NCBI GenBank assembly: GCA_002813285.1
Contig: PHTZ01000001.1
Coordinates: 3,347,501-3,411,500, forward strand
DNA length: 64,000 nucleotides
From: Flavobacteriaceae bacterium MAR_2009_75
Lineage (GTDB): Bacteria > Bacteroidota > Bacteroidia > Flavobacteriales > Flavobacteriaceae
Reading direction: 5' to 3'
Every line of letters starts with the position of its first letter. The stretch's first letter is position 1. Shown here piece after piece: positions 14,750 to 30,852 of this stretch. The position numbers and the translations under genes were made by a program. A model generated the notes under the pieces. It made no database searches and had not been told where the DNA came from. It saw nothing but the letters and a program-made list of their open reading frames with translations.

Positions 14750-14762
14750 TGCCTTAATAATT

Positions 14763-14848
14763 AAGAGGAAGGATTTGACTGATTGCAACCTCTAGTGCTG
14801 TCAACTTAATAGGTGACATAAACACTGAAAAAATGCTAAAGCAGTTGA
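14763..14848 (+). promoter_or_regulatory. Candidate SAM-II-like riboswitch before metK
   Basis: The leader contains GATTTGACTGATTGCAACC, then GTGACATAAACAC and AATGCTAAAGC. The order ATTGCA, GTGA and GCTAAA resembles the conserved core of the SAM-II pseudoknot riboswitch, with longer loops such as those described in Bacteroidota. The position before S-adenosylmethionine synthetase fits feedback by SAM. It is clearly different from the SAM-I elements at 16251 and 30605. Confidence 0.55.
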
Positions 14849-14915
14849 TGTTGGATTTCTTCCACGTTATACTTCTTTAGGGCTATTTTTCAAATCCTCA
14901 TAAATAAAGAAGTAC

Positions 14916-16219: not shown

Positions 16220-16250
16220 TTTTTCCAAAAGTTCAAACACATATTGAATT

Positions 16251-16370
16251 GTTATCAAGAAAGGTGGAGGGAATAGACCCTTTGAAGCCTTGGCAACCCT
16301 TTACCCATTCCATTTTATTATGGTAGAGAAGGTGCTACGTTCTATCCCGATGATTATTGGGGCAGATAAC
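16251..16370 (+). promoter_or_regulatory. SAM-I riboswitch (S box) controlling metY
   Basis: P1 is formed by GTTATC and GATAAC. The conserved core AAGAAAGGTGGAGGGA, TTTGAAGCCTTGGCAACC and AAGGTGCTA is present. It precedes metY by about 125 bp. A short ATTAC/GTAAT hairpin followed by T-rich sequence just after P1 could be the expression platform. Confidence 0.92.
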
Positions 16371-16494
16371 GCAACAGATTACTTCCCGTAATTTTCGCTT
16401 TCTTATAACTTTTTGATTGAATCATACTGCTTAGTCAACAGTCTGGCGTTTGTATTTTTTAATGTATTTATAAACACTTAAAAAATCAGTTACC

Positions 16495-17838: not shown

Positions 17839-20800
17839 ATGCTTCATCACCTTAAGTTAAAGAATTATACCACCCTGAGCAATGTATCTCAAGATATCGA
17901 GCTTTCGTATCAATTGTTTGGGCAAGAATTGCATACGGCACCCATTGTCTTGGTTAACCATGCCCTCACGGGCAATTCGAACGTTACGGGCGAGGGCGGT
18001 TGGTGGTCTGCAATTATTGGCGAGGGTAAATGTATCGATACGAAGAAGTATACCATTTTATCTTTCAATATTCCTGGTAACGGTCATGACAAATTTGTTA
18101 TCGAGAACTATAAAGATTTTGTAGCGGGCGATATGGCCCGAATTTTTCTTTGGGGATTGGAACAGCTGCAAGTTCAAAAATTGTTTGCCATTATCGGAGG
18201 TTCTTTAGGTGGTGGAATCGCTTGGGAAATGACAGCCCTAGACCCTAATATTACCGAACATCTTATTCCTGTAGCTTCGGATTGGAAGTCGACCGATTGG
18301 TTAATTGCCAACTGTCAGATTCAAGAACAGTTCTTGGTCAATTCGAAACAGCCTGTTCATGATGCGCGTATGCATGCGATGTTGTGTTACCGAACGCCTG
18401 AATCATTCAAAGAACGTTTTAAACGAAGCACCAATGAAGAGTTGCAGGTGTTCAACGTTGAAAGCTGGTTGATGCACCATGGGGAAAAATTACAGGAGCG
18501 GTTTCAGTTATCGGCCTATAAACTGATGAACCAACTCTTGAAGACCATTGATATCATGCGTGATGGTGATCAGAATTTTATTGATCTTCAGAACAGCAAT
18601 ACCAATATACATATAGTTGGGGTCGATTCCGATTTGTTCTTTACGGCCAAAGAAAATAAAGACACGTTCAAGCAACTGGCGCAAGCGCAGAGTAATGTAA
18701 CTTATGGCGAAGTGCATTCGTTGCATGGTCACGATGCCTTTTTGATCGAGTTTGATCAAATGGAACAATTACTGCGCCCTATTTTTAGTGAAAACGGAAA
18801 ATCTAAACGTCTTAAGGTTCTCAAGTTTGGCGGTAAATCTCTGGCCAATGGTGAAGGTTTGGGCAGGGTGCTTGATATTATCACCGATAAGGTTAACACC
18901 GGTGAAAACATTGCCGTCGTTCTTTCCGCAAGGGGTAAGGCTACAGATCAATTGGAAGAATTACTGGATAAGGCCGCATCGGGTAAAAATTATTATAAAG
19001 ATTTTGAAGCCTTTGAGAAATCTCAAAGACATACCTTTAAAAACGTCAACCTTTCCGCAGAATTCAAAGAACTGGCTAAATTGTTGGAGGGGGTTTCCTT
19101 ATTGGGTGATTACAGTCCGAAAATTAAAGATCAGGCATTATCTTTTGGCGAACTTATTTCGGCCAAATTGGTAAGCAAACTTCTGATAGGCAGGGGTATT
19201 TCCGCAGAGTTCTTAGATTCTAGAACTTTGCTCAAGACCGATTCGAACTTTGGTGACGCTTCGGTAGATGAAGCACAATCCAAAGAAAATATTATTAAGT
19301 GTTTTGCGCCCTTAGATATGGGCACGGTGCCAGTGATTACAGGGTTTATTGCTTCTGATGAGAATGGTGAAACCACTACATTAGGTAGAAATGGCAGCAA
19401 TTATTCGGCCGCATTGTTCGCGAATTTCCTGAACGCCGATGAGCTTCAAAACTATACGCATGTAGACGGTATTTATACGGCCAATCCTGATTTGGTTCCC
19501 GATGCAAAACGTATTGAGAGCCTCTCTTATGGTGAAGCGAACGAGTTGGCGAATTTTGGCGCTACCATTTTACATGCAAAGACGATAATACCCTTAATCG
19601 AAAAGAATATTCCTTTACGTATTTTGAATACATTCAATCACGATAACGAAGGAACTTTAATTAGTGCCAAAACGGCCAAAGGCGGTATCAAGTCGCTTTC
19701 GGTCATAGAAAACGTTTCGTTGATTAATCTAGAGGGTAGGGGTTTATTAGGTAAAGTGGGTATAGATGCCAGAATTTTTAGAACCTTAGAGCAGAATAAT
19801 ATTAGTGTAAGCATCATTTCCCAAGGTTCTTCTGAACGGGGTATTGGCTTAGTGGTAGACTCTGAAAAAGCGTTCAAAGCCAAAAAGGCGCTGGATGCTG
19901 AATTTGCCGGTGATTATGAGTCAAGAGATATCAATATGATTACCGTTCAAGATGAGGTTTCTGTTATATCGGTTGTGGGCCAAGACCTAAGTACCTTTCA
20001 CCGACCTTTTAATGCGCTAATAAAGAACCAGATAGTTCCTTTATTGTTCAATAATACGGTTTCGGGTAAGAATGTGAGTTTGGTCGTGAGAAAAACGGAC
20101 TTGCATAAGGCGTTGAATGTAATGCACGGGCAGATTTTCGGAATCAGTAAAAAAGTCAATTTGGCCATTTTCGGCCATGGTAATGTGGGGGGTACATTGA
20201 TCGGTCAAATACTACGTTCTAAAAAGACGATTGAAAAACGTAAGGGTATCGACTTGAACGTGTTCGCCGTAGCCAATTCAAGAAAGCTTCTTTTAGAAAA
20301 GAAAGGCGTGCCAAAGAATTGGAAAACGGCCATTGAAGATCGTGGAGTGGCCTATACCTACAATGATATAGTGACCTATGCAAAAGAGCATCACTTAGAA
20401 AATCTTATTGCCATCGATAACACGGCGAACGAAGATTTTGTGGCCAAATATTTTGATTTTGTTGAGAATGGCTTCGACTTGGTATCGTCAAACAAAATTG
20501 CCAATACGTTGGGGTTCGATTTTTATCAACTGCTTCGTGAAGAATTGGCCAAACATCAAAAACAATATTTGTACGAAACCAATGTAGGGGCAGGCTTGCC
20601 CTTAATCGATACCATAAAGTTGTTGCATTTATCAGGGGAAAACATTACCCAAATAAAGGGAGTTTTTTCTGGTTCTCTGAGTTATATTTTCAATACTTTT
20701 TCAGAGGTAGATAAACCGTTTTCTGCCATTTTGAAAGATGCAATGAAGAAAGGTTTTACAGAACCGGACGCCCGCGAAGATCTTTCGGGCAATGATGTGG

Positions 20801-21225
20801 GTAGAAAACTATTGATTTTGGCGAGAGAGCTCGATTTGAGCAATGAGTTTTCAGACATTAGTATAGACAACTTAATACCTGAGGAGTTAAGAGTAGGTAC
20901 GGTCGATGATTTCTTGGGAAGCCTTGATATTTTAGATGCCAAGTTCAGCGAAGTCAAAAAGAATCAGAAGCCAAACCATGTGCTACGTTATGTGGGTGAT
21001 TTGTATGGCGATTTACAAAAAGAGAAAGGTATTCTAGAGGTGAAATTAGTATCGGTGCCCAAAGAAAGTGCTTTGGGTCAAGTAAAAGGTTCTGATTCGA
21101 TTATTGAAATTTATACGGAATCTTATGGTAAAAATCCGTTAGTGATTCAGGGTGCCGGGGCTGGTGCCGCGGTAACCGCTCGAGGGGTGTTCGGTGATAT
21201 TTTAAGGATAGCCGAAAAAGGATAA
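17839..21225 (+). CDS. MetX-aspartokinase-homoserine dehydrogenase fusion
   Basis: 1128 residues in three parts. Residues 1-320 are an alpha/beta-hydrolase of the homoserine O-acetyltransferase type, with Ser122 in GGSLGGG, the Asp pair in VGVDSD (263-265) and His298 in GHDAFL. Residues from about 325 are an aspartokinase (KFGGKSLANG, TTLGRNGSNYSA) with ACT domains from about 625 (NLEGRGLLGKVG). Residues from about 772 are homoserine dehydrogenase (FGHGNVGGT, SSNKIANT, GAGLPLIDTI, KGVFSGSLSYI). One chain thus takes aspartate to its phosphate and aspartate semialdehyde to O-acetylhomoserine; semialdehyde dehydrogenase is not encoded here. The usual Thr of KFGGTS is Lys here. Confidence 0.93.
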   Translation: MLHHLKLKNYTTLSNVSQDIELSYQLFGQELHTAPIVLVNHALTGNSNVTGEGGWWSAIIGEGKCIDTKKYTILSFNIPGNGHDKFVIENYKDFVAGDMARIFLWGLEQLQVQKLFAIIGGSLGGGIAWEMTALDPNITEHLIPVASDWKSTDWLIANCQIQEQFLVNSKQPVHDARMHAMLCYRTPESFKERFKRSTNEELQVFNVESWLMHHGEKLQERFQLSAYKLMNQLLKTIDIMRDGDQNFIDLQNSNTNIHIVGVDSDLFFTAKENKDTFKQLAQAQSNVTYGEVHSLHGHDAFLIEFDQMEQLLRPIFSENGKSKRLKVLKFGGKSLANGEGLGRVLDIITDKVNTGENIAVVLSARGKATDQLEELLDKAASGKNYYKDFEAFEKSQRHTFKNVNLSAEFKELAKLLEGVSLLGDYSPKIKDQALSFGELISAKLVSKLLIGRGISAEFLDSRTLLKTDSNFGDASVDEAQSKENIIKCFAPLDMGTVPVITGFIASDENGETTTLGRNGSNYSAALFANFLNADELQNYTHVDGIYTANPDLVPDAKRIESLSYGEANELANFGATILHAKTIIPLIEKNIPLRILNTFNHDNEGTLISAKTAKGGIKSLSVIENVSLINLEGRGLLGKVGIDARIFRTLEQNNISVSIISQGSSERGIGLVVDSEKAFKAKKALDAEFAGDYESRDINMITVQDEVSVISVVGQDLSTFHRPFNALIKNQIVPLLFNNTVSGKNVSLVVRKTDLHKALNVMHGQIFGISKKVNLAIFGHGNVGGTLIGQILRSKKTIEKRKGIDLNVFAVANSRKLLLEKKGVPKNWKTAIEDRGVAYTYNDIVTYAKEHHLENLIAIDNTANEDFVAKYFDFVENGFDLVSSNKIANTLGFDFYQLLREELAKHQKQYLYETNVGAGLPLIDTIKLLHLSGENITQIKGVFSGSLSYIFNTFSEVDKPFSAILKDAMKKGFTEPDAREDLSGNDVGRKLLILARELDLSNEFSDISIDNLIPEELRVGTVDDFLGSLDILDAKFSEVKKNQKPNHVLRYVGDLYGDLQKEKGILEVKLVSVPKESALGQVKGSDSIIEIYTESYGKNPLVIQGAGAGAAVTARGVFGDILRIAEKG

Positions 21226-22577: not shown

Positions 22578-22988
22578 ATGCTGTCTAAAAAGACCAAATA
22601 TGGCCTTAAGGCCCTCACCTATTTAGCTTCCCAAAAGGAGAAGTCACCTGTTCAAATTTCTGAGATTGCGAAATGCGAGAACATTTCGCAGAAGTTTTTA
22701 GAGAGCATATTATTATCGCTTCGAAAGAGCGGCTTTTTAGGCTCTAAAAAAGGAAAGGGTGGGGGGTACTATTTAATAAAAGAGCCTCAAGAAATTCTGA
22801 TGACCGATGTCATGCGCATTTTAGAAGGTCCTATTGCTATGGTGCCCTGTGTGAGTTTGAATTTCTACGAAAAATGTGCTGATTGCCCTGATGAAGCTAC
22901 CTGCTCGGTAAATAAATTAATGCTCAAAGTAAGAGATGCTAATTTAGAGGTATATCGCAATAATACTTTGGCAGACCTGATTATTTAG
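22578..22988 (+). CDS. Rrf2-family transcriptional regulator
   Basis: 136 residues. The winged helix starts at MLSKKTKYGLKALTYLA, with ISEIAKCENISQKFLESILLSLRKSG as recognition part and GSKKGKGGGYYL as wing. The three-cysteine cluster CVSLNFYEKCADCPDEATC is the Rrf2 position that binds an Fe-S cluster in IscR-like members. The place between methionine and sulfate-assimilation genes suggests a CymR/CysR-like sensor of sulfur or cysteine status. Its likely sites are the repeats at 23073-23095 and 23153-23175. Confidence 0.9.
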   Translation: MLSKKTKYGLKALTYLASQKEKSPVQISEIAKCENISQKFLESILLSLRKSGFLGSKKGKGGGYYLIKEPQEILMTDVMRILEGPIAMVPCVSLNFYEKCADCPDEATCSVNKLMLKVRDANLEVYRNNTLADLII

Positions 22989-23072
22989 TTGCTTCATTTT
23001 CTTTGGATAGGCCTTCCTATAACTTCTACTGTGTTGAAATATCACCAAAAAAACCTAAGTTTTATTAATAAT

Positions 23073-23095
23073 CTACTAAATCTATGGGGTAATCG
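23073..23095 (+). promoter_or_regulatory. Operator-like repeat 1 upstream of the cys operon
   Basis: CTACTAAATCTATGGGGTAA plus three bases matches the repeat at 23153-23175 at 19 of 23 positions. It sits about 45 bp before the -7 box of the sulfate-assimilation operon and close to the rrf2 gene. Confidence 0.5.
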
Positions 23096-23138
23096 TAAAT
23101 TCTTTTGATTTATACCGTCTAAGGCAATAAAAATAACC

Positions 23139-23146
23139 TACATTTG
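23139..23146 (+). promoter_or_regulatory. -7 box of the sulfate-assimilation operon
   Basis: TACATTTG is a perfect TAnnTTTG. It lies between the two operator-like repeats, so a bound regulator would flank or cover the promoter. Confidence 0.55.
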
Positions 23147-23149
23147 TTT

Positions 23150-23175
23150 ACTCTATTAAATCAATAGGGTAATAG
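23150..23175 (+). promoter_or_regulatory. Operator-like repeat 2, a dyad just after the -7 box
   Basis: The dyad TTACTCTATT-AAATC-AATAGGGTAA (arms matching at 9 of 10 positions) begins 4 bp after the -7 box, where a bound repressor would block transcription. Rrf2 proteins bind dyads of about this length. Confidence 0.55.
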
Positions 23176-23189
23176 ATTTTAGAAAAACC

Positions 23190-23453
23190 ATGATAGTTGA
23201 TCAATTGATATTAGATAAGAATGCTTCCAAAAAGAAATTTTCGGAAGACAAAAAATCGGAAAAACCTATTCGCAGCGTCGCAAAAGCGGTTAGCTGGAGG
23301 GTAATCGGCACTTTAGATACGCTGTTAATTTCATATTTGCTAACGGGCGAAGTAGCTATTGCGGCATCTATTGCCTCTATAGATTTTGTAACCAAAATGT
23401 TTCTATACTTCGTTCACGAACGAGTATGGAACAAGATAACTTGGGGTAAGTAA
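23190..23453 (+). CDS. DUF2061 membrane protein
   Basis: 87 residues. RSVAKAVSWRVIGTLDTLLISYLLTGE is the DUF2061 signature, followed by a second membrane helix and FVHERVWNKITWGK. Such proteins often sit at the head of sulfate-assimilation operons in Bacteroidota; the role is unknown. It is the first gene of the cys operon, 12 bp before cysH. Confidence 0.88.
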   Translation: MIVDQLILDKNASKKKFSEDKKSEKPIRSVAKAVSWRVIGTLDTLLISYLLTGEVAIAASIASIDFVTKMFLYFVHERVWNKITWGK

Positions 23454-23465
23454 AAGAATTTGAAT

Positions 23466-24089
23466 ATGGGTTTTTCAGAAGAATTAGTACAAGAATTGAA
23501 TAGAAAATTTGAAGGAGCTCAACCTTCGGAAATCATTTCATGGGCAGTAGAGAATGCCGAAAATGCGGTAGTTACTACCAATTTTAGACCTTATGAAGTA
23601 GCTATTCTACATGCCGTGACCGAAGTAAAAAATGATATTCCCGTAGTTTGGTGCGATACCGGTTATAATACACCGAATACATATAAGCATGCCGAAGAGC
23701 TCATCGAACGATTAAATCTGAATGTAGATTTATATGTGCCGCTGCAAACAAGTTCACATAGAGACGCAATTATGGGTATTCCTCAAATTGATGATCCCAA
23801 GCATGCCGAGTTTACCGAACAGGTAAAATTAGAACCATTTAGAAGAGCTATGGCTACGCACAAACCTGATGTGTGGTTTACCAACCTTAGAAAAGGGCAA
23901 ACCGCATTGCGTGATTCGCTTGATGTTTTGAGTTTGAGCAAAGACGGAGTCTTAAAGGTGAGTCCGTTCTATAATTACACTGACGCTGAATTGGATGCTT
24001 ATTTAAATGAGCACGATTTACCCAACGAACATAAATATTTTGATCCGACCAAGGTGCTTGATAACCGTGAATGCGGATTGCACACCTAA
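23466..24089 (+). CDS. cysH: Phosphoadenylyl-sulfate (or APS) reductase
   Basis: 207 residues from ATG at 23466 (a TTG two codons earlier is also possible). VVWCDTGYNTPNTY, DVWFTNLRKGQT and the C-terminal ECGLHT redox motif define CysH. The CC/CxxC cysteine pairs that bind the Fe-S cluster of APS reductases are absent, which suggests PAPS use. No APS kinase gene is nearby. It reduces activated sulfate to sulfite. Confidence 0.92.
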   Translation: MGFSEELVQELNRKFEGAQPSEIISWAVENAENAVVTTNFRPYEVAILHAVTEVKNDIPVVWCDTGYNTPNTYKHAEELIERLNLNVDLYVPLQTSSHRDAIMGIPQIDDPKHAEFTEQVKLEPFRRAMATHKPDVWFTNLRKGQTALRDSLDVLSLSKDGVLKVSPFYNYTDAELDAYLNEHDLPNEHKYFDPTKVLDNRECGLHT

Positions 24090-24122: not shown

Positions 24123-25043
24123 ATGCTGCAGAACTTGAATCTTATGAAAGATACGTCACATATTAACGCCTTAGAGAACGAAGCCATCTATATTTTCAGA
24201 GAGGTGGCGGCTCAATTTGAGCGTCCGGTATTATTGTTTTCCGGAGGAAAAGATTCCATAACCTTGGTGCGTTTGGCACAAAAAGCGTTTTGGCCCGCAA
24301 AAATTCCATTTCCGTTGATGCATATCGATACAGGGCACAACTTCCCTGAAACTATTGAATTTAGAGATAGATTGGTGGAAGAATTGGGGCTTGAGCTTAT
24401 TGTGAGAAACGTTCAAGATTCTATAGACCAAGGTAAAGTTAAAGAAGAGACAGGTAGGTACAGCAGTAGAAACTCTTTGCAAACTACCACATTATTAGAT
24501 GCTATCGAAGAGTTTAAGTTCGATGCTTGTATTGGTGGGGCTAGACGTGATGAAGAGAAGGCCCGTGCGAAAGAGCGTATTTTTTCGGTACGCGACGACT
24601 TCGGCCAGTGGGATGAGCGCAACCAACGCCCTGAGCTTTTCGATATGTTGAACGGCCAGATTGAGTTGGGGCAAAACGTACGTGTTTTTCCAATTTCAAA
24701 CTGGACCGAGCTTGATGTTTGGTCTTATATCAAAGAAGAGCAAATAGAAATACCTTCTATTTATTTCGCGCATAAGCGTAAAGTATTCTTGCGTGACGGA
24801 CTTATTTGGTCGCATTCAGAATATGTGTACCAAGAGGATGATGAAGAAGTATTGGAGCGAATGGTAAGGTTTAGAACCGTGGGCGATATGAGTTGTACGG
24901 CTGCGGTATTTTCCAATGCTACCGATATTGAATCAGTAGTGGAAGAAATTAGGGACTCCAGTATTTCGGAAAGAGGTGCCCGAATCGATGATAAGCGATC
25001 CGAAGCTGCCATGGAGAAGAGAAAACAACAAGGATACTTTTAA
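24123..25043 (+). CDS. cysD: Sulfate adenylyltransferase subunit 2
   Basis: 306 residues of the PP-loop family: LLFSGGKDSITLVRLA, MHIDTGHNFPETIEFRD and GGARRDEEKARAKER are CysD signatures. With CysN it makes APS from sulfate and ATP. It is between cysH and cysN, in the usual operon order. The length is normal. Confidence 0.97.
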   Translation: MLQNLNLMKDTSHINALENEAIYIFREVAAQFERPVLLFSGGKDSITLVRLAQKAFWPAKIPFPLMHIDTGHNFPETIEFRDRLVEELGLELIVRNVQDSIDQGKVKEETGRYSSRNSLQTTTLLDAIEEFKFDACIGGARRDEEKARAKERIFSVRDDFGQWDERNQRPELFDMLNGQIELGQNVRVFPISNWTELDVWSYIKEEQIEIPSIYFAHKRKVFLRDGLIWSHSEYVYQEDDEEVLERMVRFRTVGDMSCTAAVFSNATDIESVVEEIRDSSISERGARIDDKRSEAAMEKRKQQGYF

Positions 25044-25082: not shown

Positions 25083-26330
25083 ATGGAAGTACTAAAAATA
25101 GCAACGGCAGGTAGTGTAGACGACGGAAAAAGTACCTTGATCGGTAGAATTCTTTACGATACAAAATCTTTGACCAGCGATAAGTTAGAGGCAATTGAGA
25201 AGACGAGTAAGAGCAAAGGGTATGATTATCTAGATTTCTCATTGGCGACCGATGGTTTGGTGGCCGAACGAGAGCAAGGCATAACTATAGATGTGGCTCA
25301 TATTTATTTTTCGACCAATAAGAAGAGTTATATCATAGCCGATACTCCCGGTCACGTAGAATATACCCGTAACATGGTTACAGGCGCGTCTACTTCGCAA
25401 GCGGCGATTATATTGATCGATGCCAGAAAAGGAGTGATCGAACAAACCAATAGGCACTTTTTTATCAATAACCTATTGCGGATCAAAGATGTAGTCGTAG
25501 CGATCAATAAAATGGATTTGGTCGATTATTCAGAAGAGACCTATAATCGTATTAAGGCCGATTTTGAGGAGTTGATGGCCAAGCGAGATTATCAAGACCA
25601 AAAGATAACATTCATTCCCGTGAGTGCCTTAAAAGGTGATAACGTAGTGAACAAGTCAGATAAAATGCCTTGGTATACAGGTCCTGCTTTATTAGAGCAT
25701 TTTGAGGCTTTAGATCGTAAAGATATCTTTAACGTGGGTACTCCCAGATTTCCCGTTCAATATGTAATTCGCCCTAAGACCGATGAGCATCACGATTTTC
25801 GTGGTTTCGCCGGAAAAGTTTATGGTGGCGAGTTGAGTGTAGGTGATGAGGTAATTGCACTTCCTTCACAAACACGCTCAAAAATTAAGGACATTTATTT
25901 TCATGATAAGAAATACCAAACTGCGGCAAGACGTTCGTCGGTGACGATTACTTTAGAAGATGAAATTAATTTGAGTAGGGGCGATATGTTGGTCAAGGCC
26001 GGTGATTTGCCGACCATTGAAAAACAATTCACGGCTACCGTTTCTTGGATGGATTCAGATCAGTTGACCGCTGGTAAAAAGTACGTGGTTCAACATGGGG
26101 TGAACAAGGTGTTGGCGAAGGTGGATAATATTCATCATAAGATCAATCCTGATTATTCCGGTATTGATACTGAAGTCGATGGTTTGGGTATGAACGATAT
26201 TGCCCAAGTTACCTTTAAGTTGAACAAACCCATTTTTTATGATAAGTTCAAAGACCATCGTACGAACGGTTCGTTCATATTGGTCGATGCCCAAACGAAC
26301 AATACGGTGGGTGCAGGGTTTATTGGCTAA
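25083..26330 (+). CDS. cysN: Sulfate adenylyltransferase subunit 1 (GTPase)
   Basis: 415 residues. EF-Tu-like GTPase motifs are GSVDDGKST, DTPGH and NKMD, followed by two beta-barrel domains. GTP hydrolysis drives APS formation by CysD. It stops before any APS-kinase (CysC) domain, so it is not a CysNC fusion. Confidence 0.97.
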   Translation: MEVLKIATAGSVDDGKSTLIGRILYDTKSLTSDKLEAIEKTSKSKGYDYLDFSLATDGLVAEREQGITIDVAHIYFSTNKKSYIIADTPGHVEYTRNMVTGASTSQAAIILIDARKGVIEQTNRHFFINNLLRIKDVVVAINKMDLVDYSEETYNRIKADFEELMAKRDYQDQKITFIPVSALKGDNVVNKSDKMPWYTGPALLEHFEALDRKDIFNVGTPRFPVQYVIRPKTDEHHDFRGFAGKVYGGELSVGDEVIALPSQTRSKIKDIYFHDKKYQTAARRSSVTITLEDEINLSRGDMLVKAGDLPTIEKQFTATVSWMDSDQLTAGKKYVVQHGVNKVLAKVDNIHHKINPDYSGIDTEVDGLGMNDIAQVTFKLNKPIFYDKFKDHRTNGSFILVDAQTNNTVGAGFIG

Positions 26331-26471: not shown

Positions 26472-28562
26472 ATGCAAAGTTTTAGAACCGAAATAGAGAA
26501 TCCCGTTGTTGAGAAGGATATCCTAGAGTTGGAAAAGAAAATTAGACTTTTTCACGATGGGAAGGTAGATGAGGAGAAATTCCGTAGCCTACGTTTGGCT
26601 AGGGGGGTTTACGGTCAGCGTCAGCAAGGCGTGCAGATGATTCGTATAAAATTGCCCTATGGGAAGGTGACTTCACAGCAGTTGAGGCGAATTTGCGATG
26701 TTTCCGATGAATATTCTACCGGTCGATTACATATAACCACCCGTCAAGATATTCAAATTCACTACGTTGATTTGAATAGAACGCCAGAGCTTTGGGCGCA
26801 ACTTGAAAAAGATGATGTGACCTTGCGTGAAGCATGTGGTAATACGGTAAGAAACGTAACCGCGAGTGAAACTGCAGGTATCGATATCGACGAACCATTC
26901 GATGTATCGCCTTATGCCCATGGGTTGTTTCAATATTTTTTGAGAAACCCGATCAGTCAAGAAATGGGGCGAAAGTTTAAGGTCTCTTTCTCTGCGAGTG
27001 ATGCCGATACCGGTTTATCGTACATGCACGATCTTGGTTTCATCGCTAAATTAGAAAACGGAGTCAAAGGTTTTAAAGTGATGCTTGGTGGCGGATTGGG
27101 TTCTCAACCCCGTCATGCCGATGTTCTTTTTGAATTTTTGGAAAGCGATAAAATTATTCCTCTTATGGATGGGGTGATTCGTGTTTTCGATAGATACGGA
27201 GAACGTAAAAGTAGAGCCAAGGCCCGAATGAAGTTTTTAATAAAGGATGTTGGTCTTGAAGGGTTCAAAGATTTATTGGCCGAGGAGCAAAAAGCAGTTC
27301 CGTATCAAACTTATGAGATAGACGCGGAAGCTTATCCGAAAACGGAAGTGGCTACAGTGGAAGCACCTCATGTAGAAATTGAAGATAAGACCGCTTTTGA
27401 TGCTTGGAAATCGACAAACCTTATACCTCAAAAACAGGAAGGTTTCGTGGCGATAGGTATTAAGGTGCTTTTGGGTGATTGGTATACCGACAAAGCTAGG
27501 TTACTGGCTGATTTGGTGAGCGATTACGCGGCTAGTGAAATCCGGTTGTCTTTACGTCAAAATATATTGATTCCGCATGTCAAAGAAGAATTGGTTCCTT
27601 TCTTTTATCAAGAACTAGCCAAATTAGGTTTTGCCGAAGCGGGTTATAATAGGGCCTTAGATATCACCGCATGCCCGGGTACAGATACTTGTAATTTAGG
27701 TATCGCCAGTAGTACGGGTATTGCAGAAGAATTAGAACGTATTATTAAGGCTGAGTATCCGCAGTATATCTCCAATGAAGATGTAGTCATAAAGATTAGC
27801 GGGTGTATGAACGCCTGTGGTCAACATAATATGGCGCACATAGGTTTTCAGGGGATGAGCGTGAGAACGAAAGATAAATTGGTCGCGCCGGCCTTGCAAG
27901 TGTTGTTAGGTGGTGGAAATGATGGCAACGGCAACGGTCGTTTTGCAGATAAGGTAGTTAAAATACCAAGTAAACGCGGACCTCAGGCCCTACGCTTGAT
28001 ATTAGATGATTATGATGCCAACGGTAACGGACAGTCGTATGCGGACTATTATCAGGAAAAAGGACAGATGTATTTTTACGACTTTCTGAAGCCACTTTCA
28101 GATGTGAGTAATTTAACTGCAGAAGACTTTATCGATTGGGGTAATACAGAACGATATGAAAAGGCTATTGGCGTCGGTGAATGTGCTGGGGTAGTTATAG
28201 ATTTGATTGCCACTTTACTTTTTGAGAGTGAAGAGAAGATTCAGAATGCCCAAGAGGCCTTAGAAGCTGAAAAATGGTCGGCCAGTATCTATTATTCGTA
28301 TACCTCAATGGTGAATTCGGCGAAGGCTTTATTGACCGCTGAAAAGACCAAGGTAAACACCCATGCCGGTATCATTAAAGATTTTGATGAAAAATTCGTG
28401 GCCTCTGGACGTATCGAATTAGGGGGTGGTTTTCAAGATTTAGCCCTTCAATTGAATAAAAACGAGCCTACCGAAGCATTTGCAAAAAGCTATTTGCAAG
28501 ATTCGCAACGGTTTTTAAAAGCTGTTGAAACTTACAGAAAACAAGAATTGGCAGAAGTTTAA
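26472..28562 (+). CDS. Sulfite reductase (siroheme, [4Fe-4S])
   Basis: 696 residues with the duplicated nitrite/sulfite reductase fold: HITTRQDIQIHYV near residue 95 and a second repeat with RLSLRQNILIPHV. Cluster and siroheme cysteines are in TACPGTDTCNLG and GCMNACGQHN. The C-terminal about 120 residues are helical and resemble a HEPN-like extension. It reduces sulfite to sulfide with six electrons. No CysJ flavoprotein is encoded, so electrons probably come from ferredoxin through the reductase at 29384. Nitrite reductase activity is less likely given the operon. Confidence 0.9.
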   Translation: MQSFRTEIENPVVEKDILELEKKIRLFHDGKVDEEKFRSLRLARGVYGQRQQGVQMIRIKLPYGKVTSQQLRRICDVSDEYSTGRLHITTRQDIQIHYVDLNRTPELWAQLEKDDVTLREACGNTVRNVTASETAGIDIDEPFDVSPYAHGLFQYFLRNPISQEMGRKFKVSFSASDADTGLSYMHDLGFIAKLENGVKGFKVMLGGGLGSQPRHADVLFEFLESDKIIPLMDGVIRVFDRYGERKSRAKARMKFLIKDVGLEGFKDLLAEEQKAVPYQTYEIDAEAYPKTEVATVEAPHVEIEDKTAFDAWKSTNLIPQKQEGFVAIGIKVLLGDWYTDKARLLADLVSDYAASEIRLSLRQNILIPHVKEELVPFFYQELAKLGFAEAGYNRALDITACPGTDTCNLGIASSTGIAEELERIIKAEYPQYISNEDVVIKISGCMNACGQHNMAHIGFQGMSVRTKDKLVAPALQVLLGGGNDGNGNGRFADKVVKIPSKRGPQALRLILDDYDANGNGQSYADYYQEKGQMYFYDFLKPLSDVSNLTAEDFIDWGNTERYEKAIGVGECAGVVIDLIATLLFESEEKIQNAQEALEAEKWSASIYYSYTSMVNSAKALLTAEKTKVNTHAGIIKDFDEKFVASGRIELGGGFQDLALQLNKNEPTEAFAKSYLQDSQRFLKAVETYRKQELAEV

Positions 28563-28565
28563 TTA

Positions 28566-29387
28566 ATGGATAAGAGCAACAAGACATATAACAATTTCAG
28601 GTTCGAGGCGGCAAAATGCTCCCAGAATGGCCAGCTTACAGTTGTAGGTGCCGGTCCGGGTGACGTTGAGCTAATTACCGTAAAAGCTATTAAGGCTCTG
28701 GAGTCTGCCGATGTGGTTTTGTACGATGCCTTGGTAGCTTCTGAACTATTGGAATATGCTCCTACTGCTGAACAAATTTTCGTAGGTAAGCGTAAAGGTT
28801 GCTATTCGTACCAGCAAGAGCAGATCAATGAACTCATTGTAAATCGAGCGATGACCGGTAAGCATGTCGTACGATTAAAAGGAGGTGATCCTTTTGTGTT
28901 TGGCCGAGGTGCCGAAGAGATGGAGTTCGCTGCCGAACATGGTTTAAAGACAGCTATGGTGCCAGGTGTTTCATCGTGTCTATCGGTTCCTGCGTCGCAG
29001 AATATTCCTGTAACGAAAAGAGGTTCCGCAGAGAGCTTTTGGGTCATAACGGGCACGACCAAAGAACATAAATTATCGGGCGATGTGGCATTGGCCGCAA
29101 AAAGTAATGCTACAGTCGTTATTTTGATGGGAATGTCAAAATTAGGTCAGATAGTAGATTTGTTCAAAAAAGAAGGCAAGTCTGAAACCCCTATAGCCGT
29201 TGTTCAAAATGGTACTAGAAAAGATGAAAAGATAGGTGTGGCCACGATGGCCACCATTGAGGCCGAAGTGGCTGAAAAAAAATTGACAAACCCTGCTATT
29301 ATTATAATCGGGGAAGTAGTGCGGCATCGAGCCCGTATCAAAGAAATCGTCAAAAATCAAGAATTAGAGTTAAGTAAAGCGATATGA
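28566..29387 (+). CDS. cobA: Uroporphyrinogen-III C-methyltransferase
   Basis: 273 residues of the tetrapyrrole methylase family: VGAGPGDVELITVKA, VGKRKGCYSYQQ, VRLKGGDPFVFGRGAEE and VPGVSS. It adds two methyl groups to uroporphyrinogen III to give precorrin-2, the siroheme precursor. It follows sulfite reductase by 3 bp, which supports a dedicated siroheme supply. SAM is the methyl donor. No fused CysG oxidase/chelatase domain is present. Confidence 0.94.
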   Translation: MDKSNKTYNNFRFEAAKCSQNGQLTVVGAGPGDVELITVKAIKALESADVVLYDALVASELLEYAPTAEQIFVGKRKGCYSYQQEQINELIVNRAMTGKHVVRLKGGDPFVFGRGAEEMEFAAEHGLKTAMVPGVSSCLSVPASQNIPVTKRGSAESFWVITGTTKEHKLSGDVALAAKSNATVVILMGMSKLGQIVDLFKKEGKSETPIAVVQNGTRKDEKIGVATMATIEAEVAEKKLTNPAIIIIGEVVRHRARIKEIVKNQELELSKAI

Positions 29388-30445
29388 TAAAAACAGATGT
29401 ATTAATAATTGGTGCAGGCCCGACAGGTCTTTTTACGGTATTTGAAGCGGGATTGCTGAAACTAAAATGCCATTTAATAGATGCGTTGGCCCAGCCAGGC
29501 GGACAATGTTCTGAAATATATCCGAAGAAACCGATTTATGATATTCCGGCTTTTCCGGAAATTCTTGCCGGTACGTTGGTTGATAATCTAATGGAACAGA
29601 TCAAGCCGTTCGAGCCTGGTTTCACCATGGGTGAACGTGCCGAAAAGTTAGATAAGCAAGAAGACGGTTCATTTATCGTAACGACAAACAAAGGCACTGA
29701 GCATCATGCAGCGGTTGTTGTGATCGCAGGAGGTTTAGGCTCGTTCGAACCGAGAAAACCACCTATTTCGAATATCGTTGATTTTGAAGATAAGGGTGTA
29801 GCTTATATGATCAAAGATCCTGAGGTATATAGAGATAAAAAAGTATTGATAGCCGGTGGTGGTGATTCGGCTTTAGACTGGGCTATTTTCTTGGCCGATG
29901 TTGCTTCAGAAGTTTCTTTGGTTCACCGTAGAAAAGAGTTTCGTGGTGCTTTAGATTCGGTTGAAAAAGCCAGAGAGTTGGCTAAATTGGGCAAAATCAA
30001 ACTCTTTACCGAAGCGGAGGTGAAGACCTTATACGGAGATGATCATCTAGAAGCTGTTGTAGTCAAACATAACGATGCCGAGAAAGGAGAAACCTATGTG
30101 GAGGTTGATCAGTTTATACCTCTTTTCGGTCTTTCTCCAAAGTTAGGTCCAATCGGTGATTGGGGGCTTGAAATAGAGCGAAATGCTATTAAGGTTAATA
30201 ATGCCAAAGACTATCAAACCAACATACCGGGCGTTTTTGCCATTGGTGATGTGAATACATACGAAGGTAAATTAAAATTGATTTTATCCGGTTTTCATGA
30301 AGCTGCGGTAATGTGTCAATATGCCTACCAGATTATAAACCCTGACAAACGTTTTGTGATGAAGTATACTACTGTAGGTGGGGTGACAGGTTTCGATGGT
30401 TCTAAAAAAGAAGCGAAGAAAGAAGTTGTGCAGAGTATTTCGTAA
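29384..30445 (+). CDS. Ferredoxin-NADP+ reductase (thioredoxin-reductase-like)
   Basis: 353 residues. FAD site GAGPTGLFTVFEAG, NADPH site GGGDSALDWA and the ATP-type motif FAIGDVNTYEGK. The CxxC pair of thioredoxin reductases is missing, which is the mark of the TrxR-like ferredoxin/flavodoxin-NADP+ reductases. Its start overlaps the stop of cobA by 4 bp (ATGA). It is the last gene of the operon, and a strong terminator follows. Inferred role: electron supply for sulfite reduction. Confidence 0.88.
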   Translation: MIKTDVLIIGAGPTGLFTVFEAGLLKLKCHLIDALAQPGGQCSEIYPKKPIYDIPAFPEILAGTLVDNLMEQIKPFEPGFTMGERAEKLDKQEDGSFIVTTNKGTEHHAAVVVIAGGLGSFEPRKPPISNIVDFEDKGVAYMIKDPEVYRDKKVLIAGGGDSALDWAIFLADVASEVSLVHRRKEFRGALDSVEKARELAKLGKIKLFTEAEVKTLYGDDHLEAVVVKHNDAEKGETYVEVDQFIPLFGLSPKLGPIGDWGLEIERNAIKVNNAKDYQTNIPGVFAIGDVNTYEGKLKLILSGFHEAAVMCQYAYQIINPDKRFVMKYTTVGGVTGFDGSKKEAKKEVVQSIS

Positions 30446-30578: not shown

Positions 30579-30604
30579 CAGCCGTTCATTTATACACTGA
30601 AATC

Positions 30605-30714
30605 GTTATCAAGAAAGGTGGAGGGACTAGACCCTTTGAAGCCTTGGCAACCCTTTTCTTATAAAGAAGGTGCTACATTCTATCCTTGTCATATATGGTA
30701 CACGGACAGATAAC
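30605..30714 (+). promoter_or_regulatory. SAM-I riboswitch (S box) controlling metH
   Basis: Same core as at 16251: GTTATCAAGAAAGGTGGAGG, TTTGAAGCCTTGGCAACC and AAGGTGCTACA, closed by GATAAC. A GACAA/TTGTC hairpin with T-rich sequence after it (about 30722-30750) may be the platform. It controls the split metH and probably metF. Confidence 0.92.
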
Positions 30715-30852
30715 AAAATGCGACAACTCTTGTCCGTTTATCTTTTCCTTGCTTGATATTGATTTAATAACTATGAATTCATCTGTTCGTAACAGTTGTT
30801 CTTAGAGATGTAATTGAGATAGTGTTTGTGAGTGAACTTGAGAATTTGAACA

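Follow-up and report, generated by a model that had tools for sequence, protein, structure and literature searches.

Among regulators of the Rrf2 family, the sensor loop binds an Fe-S cluster in IscR, NsrR and RirA, and in the case of IscR this loop carries three cysteines in the arrangement C-X5-C-X5-C. In Firmicutes, a regulator of this family is known to govern cysteine metabolism, the example being CymR (PMC3828012, PMC2940859), which is reported to control cysteine-synthesis genes in Bacillales (PMC3828012) and to take part in CymR-CysK signalling (PMC3828012, PMC2940859). In Bacteroidota, control of cysteine synthesis appears to be little described, and none of the matches listed in our literature search, as judged by title or the start of the abstract, describes a regulon of this kind. 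The main text of the F. psychrophilum transcriptome paper likewise contains no match for Rrf2 or sulfate.

The window analysed here is a stretch of 64,000 nucleotides within the single 4.76-Mb contig that makes up the genome of Flavobacteriaceae bacterium MAR_2009_75, and a quick tree of Rrf2, CysH and CysD places Zobellia barbeyronii as its closest named relative. The window encodes an Rrf2-family regulator of 136 amino acids (22578..22988, + strand) that passes the superfamily cut-offs (PF02082, 127 bits against 30; TIGR00738, 111.8 against 73.3); no other protein of this genome matches PF02082. Downstream on the same strand lies a sulfate-assimilation cluster, headed by the operon's first gene, which encodes a DUF2061 membrane protein (23190..23453; PF09834, 9.6e-24); among the listed papers on DUF2061, none concerns sulfate assimilation by title or abstract start. 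It is followed by cysH of the phosphoadenylyl-sulfate reductase type (23466..24089; PF01507, 7.8e-21; PRK02090, 122 bits, under the cut-off of 154), and by cysD and cysN for the small and large subunits of sulfate adenylyltransferase (24123..25043; TIGR02039, 417 bits, cut-off 397; and 25083..26330; TIGR02034, 507 bits, cut-off 336). The remaining genes encode a sulfite/nitrite reductase family protein (26472..28562; PF01077, 3.3e-43; PF03460, 1.1e-36), a uroporphyrinogen-III C-methyltransferase of the siroheme branch (cobA, 28566..29387; TIGR01469, 271 bits, cut-off 185) and an FAD-dependent reductase (29384..30445; PF07992, 5.6e-31), which, judging by spacing and strand, is probably the last gene of the cluster. 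The sulfite/nitrite reductase protein also has a C-terminal HEPN-like stretch (residues 582-646, 7.3e-05).

Between rrf2 and this cluster sit two repeats, reported in the preliminary description as 23-bp copies. Such copies are indeed present, at 23073-23095 and 23153-23175 with 19 of 23 positions identical; it is the unit length that needs correction, since the unit conserved in relatives is 25 bp. In these terms the window holds a predicted distal operator, a 25-bp inverted repeat at 23068..23092 (+ strand; 21.1 bits with profile R1), and a predicted proximal operator at 23148..23172 (+ strand; 22.9 bits). The proximal operator corresponds to the dyad noted previously just after the promoter box, TTACTCTATT / AAATC / AATAGGGTAA, a 10+5+10 inverted repeat in which 9 of 10 positions are paired. 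The promoter -7 box itself, TACATTTG at 23139..23146 on the + strand, was correctly identified as a perfect match to TAnnTTTG lying between the repeats; one inverted repeat is directly 3' of the box and the other 80 bp upstream. According to a flavobacterial transcriptome paper (PMC9723704), the TAnnTTTG box occupies -12 to -5, and on this placement the start site is predicted at 23151, with a predicted leader of about 39 nt. The proximal operator would then span -3 to +22, and the centre of the distal operator would lie at about -71.

We read this arrangement, with a probability of roughly 0.8, as a circuit in which the Rrf2 protein acts on paired operators to repress both the sulfate-assimilation cluster and a peroxiredoxin gene, repression being lifted by a cluster/metal or cysteine signal. 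Most likely, the neighbouring four-cysteine Rrf2 protein binds the conserved switch and turns the pathway off. The protein would bind both of the adjacent 25-bp inverted repeats, and a dimer on the proximal site would overlap the predicted start after TAnnTTTG, thereby blocking the DUF2061-cysH-cysD-cysN-sulfite reductase-siroheme cluster; it is this site geometry that leads us to infer repression. A second dimer, bound some 80 bp further upstream with the distance conserved, may strengthen or tune control in Zobellia, Maribacter, Allomuricauda and their kin, adding cooperative, looping or activating control wherever the distal site is present. A gene for a 1-Cys peroxiredoxin would be under the same Rrf2 protein. 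The four-cysteine loop would most likely hold a metal or an Fe-S cluster, and repression would be lifted when this cofactor is lost or damaged, or else when cysteine supply falls. The repressor of sulfate assimilation that had been predicted from the letters of the window fits the linkage of regulator, operator and sulfur genes, the promoter overlap and the wider target list. The circuit looks real, and the regulator, operator, promoter geometry and target list are directly testable in a marine flavobacterium.

The repeats are not a product of chance. The joint pattern, at 3 mismatches or fewer, has 2 matches in the window as against none in 100 shuffles, and in the whole genome it has 3 matches as against none for a reversed-pattern control. 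A sequence-only profile built from 35 sites finds 3 matches with E below 0.01 in the same genome, namely both operators and a site before a 1-Cys peroxiredoxin gene, with the next match at E 0.18. The observation is in this respect confirmed, and stronger than first stated.

Conservation of the motif before cys operons beside rrf2 had been set beforehand as the decisive test, and relatives were represented by 80 rrf2 loci from named records, isolates as well as metagenome-assembled genomes, taken as the best 80 of 579 by Rrf2 alignment. The motif is conserved: a site scoring at least 14, and also at least 18, lies within 650 nt 3' of the rrf2 stop in 79 of these best 80 of 579 loci, with 75 loci holding a site of at least 22. 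The sole locus without a site is from Tenacibaculum, where neither cysH nor DUF2061 was found. First-order Markov simulations of the same 650-nt regions give a mean of 0.15 per 80 at a score of 14, and of 1142 control windows of 650 nt in the same loci, all more distant from the rrf2 stop than the interval -100 to +4200, 1 contains a site. Because the profile was trained on relatives, partly of the same species, the test was repeated with the window's two copies as the only query, and matches with at most 4 mismatches were found in 55 of the 80 loci, as against 3 of 800 simulated sequences and 3 of 1142 other windows. The promoter box is conserved along with the operator, as 76 of the 79 loci have a perfect TAnnTTTG no more than 22 nt ahead of the last site, and in 68 of the 79 it ends exactly 1 nt before that site. 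The three failures are a one-base deviation (L126) and two loci in which only the distal site is above threshold (L139 and L168).

Over the whole loci, 24 positions outside the 650 nt score at least 18. The sulfite reductase gene accounts for 21 of these, being preceded by an operator in 21 of the best 80 of 579 loci; two others (L113 and L145) lie at a similar offset, unlabelled, and one (L127) is unexplained. A comparable internal operator was sought before the sulfite reductase gene of the window, where the best score is -9.8, though relatives have one. Autoregulation of rrf2 through the motif was also considered and rejected, the best score before rrf2 being -8.6 for the window and no higher than 5.0 for any of 79 relatives; one weak match with 6 mismatches precedes rrf2 in genome G003 (L014). 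That the window has a site before neither gene counts against the reading we prefer.

Two sites above threshold are present in 42 of the best 80 of 579 loci, and the distance between them is nearly constant: 80 bp in 32 loci, 79 bp in 4, 81 bp in 3, 78 bp in 1 and 69 bp in 2. In two more loci the proximal partner narrowly misses the threshold, scoring 13.5-13.6. For 40 pairs, the standard deviation of the spacing from distal to proximal site is 0.5 bp, as against 21 bp for the distance from the rrf2 stop to the distal site. When 33 sequences with 80-bp spacing, the window included, are compared, pairwise identity is 0.85 in the distal and 0.75 in the proximal site. The spacer is hardly conserved, at 0.44 over its first 35 nt and 0.65 over its last 20 nt, which include the box; the outer flanks give 0.43 and 0.35. 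All 33 sequences keep the TA and the TTTG of the box, and no strongly conserved element is seen among them on the -33 side of the promoter. The two 69-bp pairs, from sister species of Cellulophaga, are 11 bp shorter, or about one helical turn, which puts the distal centre near -60. Mapped on the tree, the paired state requires 8 changes, at least 4 of them forced by well-supported branches, as against a shuffled mean of 27.1; the paired state is thus clustered but does not trace back to a single gain, a further point against the reading we prefer.

Such geometry is relevant to a competing account, in which the protein is a dual regulator that represses from the proximal site and activates from the distal one (at about -71, or about -60 in the two Cellulophaga) through contact with RNA polymerase, made from a constant side of the DNA helix. 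IscR represses some promoters and activates others, and the tight spacing of the 40 pairs, the shortening by about one turn and the -33 side without a strongly conserved element are all in favour of dual action. Cooperative or looping repression fits the same geometry, however, and the two shortened pairs, coming as they do from sister species, probably represent one event. Moreover, a pair in G003 is 115 bp apart and lies outside the pattern, and roughly half of the loci manage without a distal site, a fact that also counts against our preferred reading. On balance we consider dual regulation unlikely. Because its distance is fixed, the operator pair lends itself to distinguishing looping from dual regulation among Rrf2 proteins.

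For the Rrf2 protein itself, three cysteines had been claimed; the sensor loop in fact has four that are invariant, C91-X8-C100-X2-C103-X5-C109, with a fifth, C33, that is not conserved. All of the best 80 of 579 orthologues have the C-X8-C-X2-C-X5-C loop, and 29 of 29 other class-level loci have a four-cysteine loop; cysteines conserved in this way could accommodate a cluster. The AlphaFold model (mean pLDDT 81.9, with residues 93-100 of the sensor loop below 50) has the winged-helix Rrf2 fold, and its top Foldseek matches are CymR, RsrR and IscR, at TM 0.71-0.82 on the query, with NsrR structures also matching; the CymR, RsrR and IscR types are not told apart by Foldseek. None of the equivalog cut-offs is reached, whether for CymR (NF047409, 86.5 bits against 195), IscR (TIGR02010, 66.9 against 207.55), RirA (76.3 against 193), NsrR (59.8 against 182) or, likewise, the Xanthomonas SUF regulator. 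With CymR the protein shares the fold, at a sequence E of 1.5e-16, and a predicted role at cysteine-synthesis genes. With IscR, NsrR and RirA it shares the fold and cysteines in the same loop, and the last two loop cysteines of IscR are spaced C-X5-C as they are here. It differs from the three in its extra cysteine, from IscR in the resulting spacing of the loop, and from all of them in its targets, which are sulfur-assimilation genes as opposed to Fe-S assembly, NO or iron genes. The best sequence match in the PDB is the Thermincola potens IscR (4cic; 8.9e-19 over residues 3-135), whose printed chain, by contrast, has no cysteine in the aligned loop and may be an engineered variant. The four-cysteine loop favours a metal or Fe-S cofactor, and we infer an Fe-S signal from how well these residues are conserved and from what is usual among Rrf2 proteins; the four cysteines could also bind zinc.

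At the same odds as dual regulation, and ahead of the remaining alternatives, stands a signal of another kind, whereby the protein may respond, as CymR does, to cysteine or O-acetylserine through a partner such as CysK, the cysteines of the loop having a structural or thiol-redox role only. In support of a CymR-like, cysteine-linked signal, Foldseek puts CymR (2y75) first, CymR-CysK signalling is described (PMC3828012, PMC2940859), and the targets are in the cysteine pathway. The protein nonetheless falls well below the CymR cut-off, and it has four invariant loop cysteines whereas CymR is reported to bind no cluster (PMC9338935). The targets also differ from those of CymR, consisting here of a sulfate-reduction cluster and a peroxiredoxin.

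Within the family, a scan of 60 genomes yielded 50 profile matches with E no worse than 0.02, spread over 32 of the genomes; 36 of the matches are before DUF2061 or cysH, 4 before peroxiredoxin, 2 before sulfite reductase and 8 with no recognised sulfur gene nearby. These last 8, which include the only match of G031, count against the preferred reading. In the genome of the window, the third strong site lies 28 bp before the start codon of the 1-Cys peroxiredoxin gene, and this target is common to other genera: of 30 peroxiredoxin loci in 28 genomes, 15 have a site scoring at least 10 at a distance of 17-49 nt from the start codon, on its 5' side, and in 11 the score is at least 14, as against 0.22 and 0.02 per 30 expected from simulations at these two scores. 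One DNA site would in this manner join cysteine supply to peroxide defence.

The motif tends to occur together with the regulator. An rrf2 orthologue (E below 1e-30) is present in 40 of the 59 family genomes covered by both searches, and 30 of the 40 have a profile match (in one of them, G031, away from cys genes), as against 2 of the 19 genomes without an orthologue (G017 and G036, in neither of which cysD was found). In ten of these 19 a cysD is present, with no score higher than 8.0 at any of its ten loci, a contrast that is confounded by a divergent cysD type (59-77% identity), by the reading of about 1.5 kb of flank and by one locus at a contig end. In G008, rrf2 is present, a divergent cysD lies elsewhere, and there is no site near that cysD. 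In this genome (L030:2004-3098), rrf2 is followed by a weaker site (18.6) and then by a RimK-like ATP-grasp gene, possibly reflecting a change of target.

At the level of the class, an rrf2 orthologue at E 1e-30 or better is found in 27 of 119 genomes, the window's own included, and a site scoring at least 12 lies within about 210 nt 3' of rrf2 in 15 of the 29 other loci taken, where simulations give 0.0 expected; the 14 of 29 with no site close behind rrf2 count against the preferred reading. The genes after rrf2 vary. For instance, DUF2061-cysH-cysD is found in L236, DUF2490 with a TauE-family transporter in L238, DUF2490 with a CitMHS/sodium:sulfate-type transporter in L249, a serine-acetyltransferase-like gene with a PALP enzyme in L256, and sulfite reductase in L245 as well as in L247 and L251, these two without a site. 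In other cases the neighbour is a non-sulfur gene: L242 has an alginate-export-type protein, L261 a TonB receptor, and L243, where no site is clear, a PAS protein. In two family genomes (L261 and L262), a second four-cysteine Rrf2 paralogue is followed by a site and then by a gene of TonB-receptor type in L261 and one with a similar start in L262. A peroxiredoxin homologue lies 726 nt beyond rrf2 on the opposite strand in L246 and 589 nt beyond it on the same strand in L248, fitting the peroxiredoxin-Rrf2 link.

It is possible, and we suggest it tentatively, that across the class a four-cysteine Rrf2 protein is the main switch of sulfate assimilation, linking the state of a cluster or the redox state both to the making of cysteine and to a thiol peroxidase, and that in part of the Flavobacteriaceae a pair of operators held in constant helical phase (about +10 together with -71 or -60) serves to repress at the start site and to act from upstream by looping or activation.

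Binding by Rrf2 is a prediction, and the protein apparently does not regulate itself through the motif, both of which would suit a scenario in which the operators are real, another regulator binds them and Rrf2 is merely a neighbour. We judge this improbable, as the motif co-occurs with rrf2 even where the two are far apart, the paired sites being kept at a cys operon about 180 kb (G051) or about 7 kb (G012) from rrf2. In addition, sites lie behind rrf2 in the 15 of 29 class-level loci with different downstream genes, and the length of the palindrome is usual for the Rrf2 family, 23 bp being reported for NsrR (PMC9338935).

Least credible of all is that the repeats act in RNA as a leader element. 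In favour of this, SAM and SAM-II riboswitches occur elsewhere in the window; against it, no Rfam match is found at the repeats, the distal copy is upstream of the promoter box, and the leader is predicted to be only about 39 nt long. The riboswitches in question, one SAM-II and two SAM, are at 14759-14849, 16249-16372 and 30603-30716, and the two SAM riboswitches precede a homocysteine-synthase-type gene and the metH region. Their position before methionine genes suggests a division in which the methionine genes are under RNA control and the cysteine genes under Rrf2 operators. The window also encodes a protein of 1128 amino acids (17839-21225) in which a homoserine O-acetyltransferase-like part (residues ~16-319) is joined to an aspartate kinase-homoserine dehydrogenase (~326-1126), placing three steps of the methionine/threonine pathway in one chain.
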